Below are positions 19,090 through 21,310 of a stretch of DNA of 21,310 nt, piece after piece. A program made the position numbers and the translations under genes. A model generated the notes under the pieces. It saw nothing but the letters and a program-made list of their open reading frames with translations, was not told where the DNA came from and ran no database searches. Each line of letters starts with the position of its first letter. Position 1 is the stretch's first letter. The stretch lies in IMG/VR virus record IMGVR_UViG_3300017739_000145, positions 1 to 21,310 of that record; one strand, written 5' to 3'. The DNA comes from a virus.

Positions 19090-20436
19090 TTAGTATCTTT
19101 CTACTGACTTGACTTCACCATCTACCATGTATTCAATTTTAGCAGAAACAAAGTCATCATCATTCATTAACTCATAGACTTCATCTTCGGCATTTAATCC
19201 GCTTATAAAATCTATAGACTTTTCTTCACCATCTTTTTTGATATAAGAAAGTCTATGATTAACCCTAAACATATTTTCTTCAAGTGTATCCGCCATGATT
19301 TGCTTTAACAAGGTTTTAATTCTACTTCTAAGTTCGCTGTATAAGGGTTCTTTAATGTTGTACATCATAGTACCGTCTCCCTCTGGGTCGCCGTTCCAGA
19401 ATCCACCTAGTTTTTTACCTAGGAAATCATCCCAAGCGTATCCATCTTTGATACCCATAGCGAATAACTTTTGAGCTAATCTTTCATTATAAAACGGATA
19501 TAAGGATATAGTTTTTCCTTCGTCTTCTTTAAGATCTTTGTATATGCTTTCTAAGTTCATATCTTCCGGTTCGGCTGAAGCCATCATACCTGTGTATCCA
19601 TGGTTATCAACATATAATTGTTTTAATTTTTTTAATTCTTGGCGAACCAACATTTCTGTTTCGTTATCGAGTGATTCTCCGTTTTGCATACCACTTTTTA
19701 AAATTTCTTCGGCATCCATAATCATACGACCAAGGTTAGTTTTAGAAAAATACCCGCTAAATGCGTCTTTTCTTTCTTTTACTAACTTATCTATATATTT
19801 AGCTTGACCTGCATGTCCTTTAGAGGATTTTTTTAATGACTTACTCATCTTTTTTAATTTTTGGGTTTCACCCTTAGTTAAATCTGCTTCTTCCATACTC
19901 GTAGCTTTTACAAAAATAGTTACTCCTCCACCCATATTAGGTTTAGCAACAAGTCCCATATTTCTAGCTTTTCTGATCAATTGGTTTTTTTCATTAGCAT
20001 CCATAGGGCCTGGTACAATTGCTTTTCCATTCATAGGATCTCCTACATATTTGTAGTTACGAGCACCTAAAAGTTTACCTAACTTATTTTCACTTACGGG
20101 TTCGAATTGTAAAAATCTTTTTCTTGCTCGATTTCTTCTACCGAAATAATCTGTAACGGGTTCGGCAATAAATCTTTTATCTCCTAAACGGGAGTTAAGA
20201 AACATACGGTGCATTTCTGGTTCACTGTTTACGAATCTTTCTCTTTCTTCTGAACCACCTAAGTAGTTTTCCCCATCACCTTTAAATAATTCGTTTCTTG
20301 TAACCTTAACAATCTCTGGATTGGTTTTAAGGTCGTTAAACATTTGTTTTGCTTCGTTTTCGTCGGTAAAATGTCTAAAGTCTCTAGTGACTTCGTTACC
20401 GTCCATTTCAACAAAATCTAATTCGTAATACTTCAT
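19090..20436 (-). CDS. Unrecognised phage protein, 448 aa
   Basis: No match to a family I can name. The N-terminal 50 residues look like a small beta-alpha-beta unit (MKYYELDFVEMDGNEVTRDF; DENEAKQMFNDLKTNPEIVK). Residues about 85-135 are very basic (FGRRNRARKRFLQF), and a Gly-rich stretch follows (MGLVAKPNMGGGVTIFVKAT). A Lys-rich region at about 195-225 (LKKMSKSLKKSSKGHAGQAK) and acidic helices come next, then GYAWDDFLGKKLGGFWNGDP. The basic patches suggest nucleic-acid binding. No helicase or polymerase motif is visible. It is the first gene after the structured spacer, and its expression may depend on that RNA. Confidence 0.7.
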   Translation of the reverse strand: MKYYELDFVEMDGNEVTRDFRHFTDENEAKQMFNDLKTNPEIVKVTRNELFKGDGENYLGGSEERERFVNSEPEMHRMFLNSRLGDKRFIAEPVTDYFGRRNRARKRFLQFEPVSENKLGKLLGARNYKYVGDPMNGKAIVPGPMDANEKNQLIRKARNMGLVAKPNMGGGVTIFVKATSMEEADLTKGETQKLKKMSKSLKKSSKGHAGQAKYIDKLVKERKDAFSGYFSKTNLGRMIMDAEEILKSGMQNGESLDNETEMLVRQELKKLKQLYVDNHGYTGMMASAEPEDMNLESIYKDLKEDEGKTISLYPFYNERLAQKLFAMGIKDGYAWDDFLGKKLGGFWNGDPEGDGTMMYNIKEPLYSELRSRIKTLLKQIMADTLEENMFRVNHRLSYIKKDGEEKSIDFISGLNAEDEVYELMNDDDFVSAKIEYMVDGEVKSVERY

Positions 20437-20456: not shown

Positions 20457-20470
20457 CCGATAAATATATT
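20457..20470 (-). promoter_or_regulatory. Possible promoter element before the 448 aa gene
   Basis: Minus-sense AATATATTTATCGGC lies about 20 bases before the ATG at 20436. It shares ATATTTAT with the gene-start motif and fits the TAnnTTT half of a Bacteroidota -7 box, but no TTG at suitable spacing is seen. Transcription from here would leave the structured spacer out of the mRNA. Confidence 0.3.
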
Positions 20471-20508
20471 AAAGGATAGTAAGGTACCCATATAAACTGA
20501 GGATATTT

Positions 20509-20695
20509 GTATATACTTGTCGATGCCCTATAGTTATTTTCGATTCATAAACATATCGTAACATATATACCGGTATAGCGCACGTCGATGGACATCAGCG
20601 CCGGTGGGATATCTACATGGTACGCCGTACGCACGACGGCATACGGGTGGTAAGACGGGGGCACCGTCACCGTTATGACCGCACCCCCATCACCC
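20509..20695 (-). ncRNA. Candidate structured RNA: consecutive hairpins in a GC-rich spacer
   Basis: This 187-base part of the RadA-448 aa spacer folds into successive stems in the minus sense. SL1 (20657-20688): arms GGGGGTGCGGTCA and TGACGGTGCCCCC, 12 of 13 positions paired, loop TAACGG, with an outer GGGTG/CACCC closure (20645-20695). SL2 (20620-20644): GTATGCCGT and ACGGCGTAC, 9 bp. SL3 (20569-20605): CCGGT closure, GCGC/GCGC, ATGTC/GACGT, loop CATC. SL4 (20533-20562): GTTA-CGAT paired with ATCG-(AAAA)-TAAC. SL2 abuts SL1. G+C of 20581-20700 is 72 of 120, against 15 of 60 in 20461-20520. No open frame of note, no terminator T-tract and no tRNA fold were found. Function unknown: leader, processed small RNA or origin-linked structure. 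Confidence 0.55.
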
Positions 20696-20707
20696 AATTA
20701 ATGTTTT

Positions 20708-21310
20708 TTATTCTTCATTACTTGCACCCTCATACAACCAATTGACCATGTTTTTGGTTGTGAAGTTGAAATAATATTTATTCATATTTCCACCGCGACG
20801 GTTCTTACTAAATGCAAGGTAACGATTTCCATCACCATCGAATTTTAAATGACCCATCGCTGTCGTCATATGTTTAATGCGATTTGAACCAGCAAACGTT
20901 CCACTCTTTGTTACTTGCTGGATCAACAATGTCGCCGTATTAATACCACGCTTATTCTCACCCATATTCTGTTCTTCAAGCAACGTCAGTAGCTTCGTCG
21001 TCGCACCCTTATAAGTGCCGCCATAATAATCTTGAATACCAACTGCTACCTCAGCAATCGAATCAATCAACACACAATCATATCCCTCCTCAAATGCACT
21101 ACGCAATACATCAAGTGGATCCTCATCCGCTTGATCACCCATAAACAAAATTGGCACATCACCAAACTTGGGGAAACGCTTAACGTAACCTACCATGTCA
21201 ATCTGATTCATTTCACCCGACACAAACAACACTCGCTTACCCTTATTATTCATATCAGCAATCAAATCAAGCAACACAGTTGTTTTACCAACACCTGGAT
21301 CACCTGTAAT
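20708..21310 (-). CDS. RadA-like RecA-fold ATPase, 5' end beyond window
   Basis: 200 codons are visible; the frame is open to the window edge, so the N-terminus is missing. The first codons read ITGDPGVGKTT, a Walker A loop (GDPGVGKTT), then RVLFVSGEMN (the RadA/Sms S-G-E motif), Walker B in YDCVLIDSIAE, and the RadA-type stretch IQQVTKSGTFAGSNRIKHMT ending in SKNRRGG, a variant of the K-N-R-F-G motif. RadA promotes branch migration in recombination; phage relatives act in recombination-linked replication. The absent N-terminus prevents checking for the RadA zinc finger. The GTG at 21277 is internal, not the true start. G+C (about 43 percent in one 60-base sample) is above that of the structural genes. 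Confidence 0.82.
   Translation of the reverse strand: MTGDPGVGKTTVLLDLIADMNNKGKRVLFVSGEMNQIDMVGYVKRFPKFGDVPILFMGDQADEDPLDVLRSAFEEGYDCVLIDSIAEVAVGIQDYYGGTYKGATTKLLTLLEEQNMGENKRGINTATLLIQQVTKSGTFAGSNRIKHMTTAMGHLKFDGDGNRYLAFSKNRRGGNMNKYYFNFTTKNMVNWLYEGASNEE

Follow-up and report, generated by a model that had tools for sequence, protein, structure and literature searches.

The window, a linear viral fragment of 21,310 bases from IMG/VR, carries a real, conserved and apparently undescribed non-coding DNA element, which overlaps a region that a first-pass annotation had singled out as a multi-hairpin RNA candidate. Judged by alignment, the core of this element is conserved as sequence and spacing and not as pairing. 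Its most likely role, which we put forward tentatively, is that of a cis-acting DNA element, a candidate replication origin comparable in kind to oriE of phage T4.

Genomic setting and conserved core

The window derives from a T4-like phage, as identified by a match to the baseplate wedge family phrog_219. The reported region lies in a 271-nt spacer that leads from an ATPase gene, with weak Pfam matches to RecA, KaiC and AAA, to an open reading frame of 448 aa that had no match in PHROG and Pfam. No tRNA or tmRNA was found within the window. The description of the region as a G+C-rich stretch within an AT-rich spacer, in which stems can be drawn, was borne out. The genes, the core and its boxes are as follows.

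20708-21310, minus strand: 3' part of a RecA/RadA/DnaB-like P-loop ATPase gene (phrog_26214, phrog_19), which runs off the window end
19090-20436, minus strand: 448-aa open reading frame of unknown function, with one relative (L002)
20501-20622, minus strand: conserved core element of ~125 bp (nhmmer match, E 9.8e-21; 105 loci; alignment A2)
20588-20594, minus strand: near-invariant box TGTCCAT (alignment A2)
20520-20524, minus strand: ATCGA box (alignment A2)
20503-20516, minus strand: 3' box GTATATACAAATAT (alignment A2)

Among 49 loci related to the ATPase gene, L003 to L006 have the same spacer and L026, L037 and L040 carry a weaker form of it. A gapped pattern built from these spacers, TGTCCAT N67-75 KATATACNNATAT, matched at least 120 viral stretches. 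The pattern fixes the outer two boxes only; it determines neither the sequence between them nor the boxes of those loci that were reached by way of the protein. A profile search placed the element in 105 IMG/VR loci, 83 of them distinct, with E values from 1e-10 to 1e-27. In the alignment, CCCAcgCGcgttgaTGTCCATat is followed by ~70 bp that include AAAAGG and GATCG..CGATC blocks, then by ATCGA and GTATATACnnATAT, and the spacing of the boxes is fixed across relatives. Many loci have a second ATCGA-TATATAC box ~85-113 nt downstream, or 220-430 nt downstream where a small gene intervenes. In several loci this second box overlaps TTTG-N20-TATATTT, which we take to be a Bacteroidota-type promoter.

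All 29 of the phage contigs compared, up to 170 kb in length, contain one strong copy each, any others being weak partial matches. In many loci the element lies downstream of a RecA/RadA-like gene, and it precedes by 2-10 kb a conserved block of T5orf172-type, HD-hydrolase and baseplate genes. It thus sits at the boundary between an early-type gene run, on the RecA/RadA-like side, and the block leading to the baseplate genes. The element was not found in cultured phages by DNA similarity, nor by model R1 in segments of Flavobacterium phage immuto and Microcystis phage Mel-JY01. Matches of the pattern in bacterial genomes were scattered over unrelated taxa and reached 17 bits at best, compared with model scores of ~48-88 bits for true copies, and were taken as chance.

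Several features of the neighborhood were recorded alongside. In L102, L040, L136 and L089, an opposite-strand gene for a small membrane protein has its end at the element, just downstream of it, and after this gene comes a terminator in the orientation of the element strand, so that an antisense transcript is likely in these loci. In L089, L102, L040 and L157, an inverted repeat (ACGCCAAA..TTTGGCGT, ATACCAAA..TTTGGTAT) lies ~150-240 nt downstream of the element, surrounds a conserved AAAATGGCAACC stretch and shows paired changes between phages. A 170-kb phage contig has fourteen predicted tRNA genes (L128:1763-5886) ~4-8 kb downstream of its copy of the element. Protein cluster 4 (~245 aa, e.g. 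in L097) resembles by eye the T4 late sigma factor gp55, with no confirmation from PHROG or Pfam. In Mel-JY01, whose listed host is Microcystis, a gap of 844 nt without coding sequence (L239:9965-10809; PP395634.1), which contains hairpins and an AT-rich part, lies upstream of genes common to these phages.

Hairpins, pairing and the leader question

The region had been proposed to be a single RNA with at least three stable GC-rich stems and one AT-richer stem in a row, made in the direction of the genes. The structures relevant to this proposal are listed here with the sequence tract in which they lie and the promoter-like box of the next gene.

20648-20696, minus strand: SL1, a sense-strand RNA hairpin directly past the ATPase stop codon (z -4.11)
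20620-20644, minus strand: SL2, a GTATGCCG..CGGCGTAC stem around a CGTACG palindrome (z -2.11)
20541-20655, no strand assigned: DNA tract of alternating purines and pyrimidines, the maximum of the window (up to 0.75; mean 0.45, sd 0.06)
20460-20468, minus strand: promoter-like box TATATTTAT of the 448-aa gene (TATTTAT motif)

Among the proposed stems, SL1 alone is clearly above chance. It folds at -32.1 kcal/mol in the sense strand versus -24.1 kcal/mol in the antisense strand and contains four G-U pairs, and hairpins like it, of differing sequence, occur in L004, L005 and L006. No T-run, and hence no U-run, lies directly 3' of SL1. SL1 is likely a 3'-end or terminator-type hairpin that closes the transcript of the upstream gene, and the flank hairpins of relatives described below probably end the early transcript that precedes them. 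The rest of the proposed row of stable stems held up less well: SL2 is marginal, SL3 is not significant (z -1.21; SL3 and SL4 together, z -0.19), and the 3' part as a whole (20509-20612, 104 nt) is as stable as its shuffles (z +0.58). Comparison of the full 187-nt region with shuffled sequence, suggested as a check on the fold, came out in between, with an MFE of -68.2 in minus sense (z -1.62) that 14 of 200 shuffles equaled; the plus strand gave -57.4 (z -0.66).

The positions of SL3 and SL4 form the most strongly alternating part of the window. With alternation computed in 80-nt windows, starts from 20541 to 20576 gave values of 0.70-0.75, and the element was among the strongest alternation sites in four further genomes or contigs as well (G001, G009, G010 and G011). 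The tract is rich in short palindromes (CGTACG, CCGG, TATA), and stems appear in the region because an alternating tract full of such palindromes yields them by itself.

A one-sided pattern, in which imperfect positions are G-U pairs in the transcript and A-C mismatches in the other strand, had been taken as a sign of selection on RNA. It was found again in 54 non-redundant loci, where near-perfect stems within the 5' flank of 150 nt contain 51 G-T and 8 A-C positions on the sense strand, compared with 34 and 28 in shuffled flanks (p 3e-7). With G-T positions so far in excess of A-C positions, the 5'-flank hairpins do function as RNA transcribed in the direction of the genes. CGTAC is 22-fold over-represented in these flanks. 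A T-run (at least five T in the next 8 nt) follows 4 of 43 flank stems, and unmistakable U-run terminators stand just upstream of the core in L085, L060 and L163. In the core proper, however, the bias is weak (26:12). The G-U pattern therefore stands for SL1 and the flank stems but hardly for the core, and RNA in the gene direction is supported by the strand-specific SL1 and its counterparts but not by the conserved core, which has no folding excess.

The absence of this excess is seen over 83 core sequences, with mean z values of -0.19 (sense) and -0.29 (antisense). RNAalifold returned no structure for the 83 aligned cores. The covariation test that had been suggested for related pairing, run as an all-against-all comparison of columns in 69 sequences (Neff 39), gave no stack of covarying canonical pairs. 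A hairpin at TGTCCAT pairs no better with its own partner than with foreign ones (p 0.61), and an H-type pseudoknot of ATCGA with ATCGAT was rejected, since its own-partner advantage was absent. One candidate helix (columns 57-75 with 94-110) did favor its own partner, at a p of 7e-4 that is uncorrected for relatedness. These results speak against a single four-stem RNA, and the idea of a processed small RNA found no support in them. The region had been said to fit no familiar RNA class; no Rfam family matched the window and nine relatives at the gathering threshold, and a search of the spacer at E values up to 10 returned nothing relevant. The 3' end of a giant RNA was rejected too, as the core has no Rfam match and folds no better than shuffles.

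The region had also been suggested to be a leader that controls the 448-aa gene. This is unlikely because the form of the element stays the same even if an unrelated gene follows or the next gene is reversed, and because the 448-aa gene has the promoter-like box TATATTTAT of its own. The genes downstream of the element vary and often lie on the opposite strand; a leader or riboswitch of the next gene was rejected, there being no single downstream gene family on the same strand. TATTTAT, the motif in the promoter-like box, is enriched 15-45 nt upstream of 1075 gene starts (as many as 85 occurrences per 15-nt bin against ~7), as observed in G001, G008 to G011 and other contigs, and probably serves these phages as their common promoter. 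No such enrichment of TATATAC was found upstream of gene starts, and G001, G008, G010 and G011 each have a single TATATACnnATAT on the element strand. The box is therefore no general promoter, a possibility we rejected for want of recurrence upstream of many genes.

The element as a candidate origin

The first-pass annotation had mentioned a link to replication and the proximity of the RadA-like ATPase, which is a good lead. Upstream of the core, TA steps form a lattice with a period of 3.667 nt (11/3) in the largest clade. The lattice is significant singly (p<0.05) in 40 of 70 loci, with a pooled z of 28 that is inflated by relatedness, and the maximum of the TA-lattice scan of G010 falls at the element. 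In 29 of 35 loci, synonymous GC skew is lower after the element than before it, the mean going from +0.10 to -0.25 (p 9e-8), so that a compositional shift from plus to minus is present at the element. Flavobacterium phage immuto, a cultured relative, has the same downstream gene block as the element loci; of 18 ACCCG copies in 27 kb of its sequence, 15 fall in the syntenic gap, mostly at distances of 11-13 nt. Two ACCCG arrays there flank ~350 nt of non-coding DNA (L238:8300-8900; NC_055915.1, ~66.3-66.9 kb), an arrangement that looks like an iteron origin.

If the element is an origin, an initiator complex would bind the phased sites and the boxes and open the DNA, either at the flexible tract or in the AT-rich spacer that separates the two boxes, and would load the replisome. 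SL1 would be distinct from this, an RNA hairpin at which the transcript from upstream ends. It is possible, though we hold this with less confidence than the origin reading itself, that the element represents a new class of origin in T4-like phages of marine bacteria, made up of the extreme alternating tract, a TA lattice of three steps per 11 bp and paired ATCGA-GTATATACnnATAT boxes, which a phage initiator would open.

A structured non-coding RNA in the gene direction, either a processed small RNA or a leader, would fit the sense-biased SL1 (z -4.1), the 51:8 ratio in the flank stems and the helix of columns 57-75 and 94-110 (p 7e-4), but we consider it unlikely given a core without folding excess over 83 sequences (z -0.19/-0.29), the lack of a covarying stack, the TGTCCAT hairpin without own-partner advantage (p 0.61), the U-run terminators just upstream of the core in three loci and a downstream gene that is often antisense. 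Slightly less doubtful is control of transcription, in which a terminator of the early operon would be followed by a special promoter or operator (ATCGA-GTATATACnnATAT, repeated ~100 nt downstream) that drives or times the next block. The overlap of the second box with TTTG-N20-TATATTT in several loci, a skew step that suits a transcription-unit boundary and the hairpins and terminators just upstream of the core are consistent with this. On the other hand, each genome has the box essentially once, gene starts show no enrichment of it, in many loci no gene on the same strand follows the element, and the alternating tract and the 11/3 lattice are left unexplained. Another DNA-level site, for packaging start, recombination or segregation, would suit the single copy and the extreme alternating tract, and the plus-to-minus skew resembles a terminus or genome end; with no terminase or recombinase family among the annotated recurrent neighbors, we regard it as improbable.

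The origin reading has its own difficulties. The plus-to-minus skew is opposite to the usual rule for bacterial origins and has the sign of a terminus, and transcription may be its cause. The TA lattice does not reach significance either in the window (p 0.24) or in the L103/L130 clade, and the window spacer has no direct repeats. A melting profile gave percentiles of 72-99 for the AT-rich spacer, so that other places in the genome melt more easily. The core sequence was not found in the immuto segment, so that the position is common to the two but the sequence is not, and no initiator gene was identified beside the element. Because of the skew sign, the missing lattice in the window, the melting profile, the coreless immuto gap and the lack of an initiator, the candidate origin is held as a tentative first choice, with transcription control well behind it, a structured RNA a little less probable still and another DNA-level site the least probable.

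Relation to known systems

We know of no established replication start for T4-like phages outside the Escherichia phage group. In T4, oriE has 12-nt iterons, which have no assigned role, and is located at shifts of transcription strand and composition (PMC3016281). The element shares with oriE, and with the syntenic iteron regions of T4 relatives (PMC3016281), a place in a T4-type phage upstream of the baseplate wedge gene 6, before which oriE lies by 1.7 kb. A transcription or composition shift is a further likeness. Evenly spaced direct repeats, roughly a helical turn apart, occur in the immuto gap, and 40 of 70 loci have the TA lattice, but the window has neither. The element is non-coding and combines a conserved core with an alternating tract and with TA steps at intervals of 11/3 nt; oriE, by contrast, overlaps the gene 5 coding sequence and has 12-nt repeats, and no sequence match between the two has been shown.

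The DnaA-trio has a repeat of 3 nt, whereas the lattice of the element has a period of 3.667 nt, and no DnaA of these phages was identified. The likeness to the DnaA-trio and BUS of bacterial oriC (PMC6669920, PMC8287927), a trinucleotide-type lattice beside boxes, is one of resemblance only. The giant ornate phage RNAs GOLLD and ROOL (PMC12286853) are likewise long, hairpin-rich non-coding regions of phages, sometimes near tRNAs; in contrast, the element comprises ~125 nt that appear conserved as sequence and not as pairing, with no Rfam match.

A conserved single-copy element with a sequence signature of its own, present in more than 100 environmental phages, provides a concrete site at which the start of replication can be tested. 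Other phage genomes can be scanned for its signature, which consists of an alternation peak, a TA lattice of 11/3 nt and spaced boxes.
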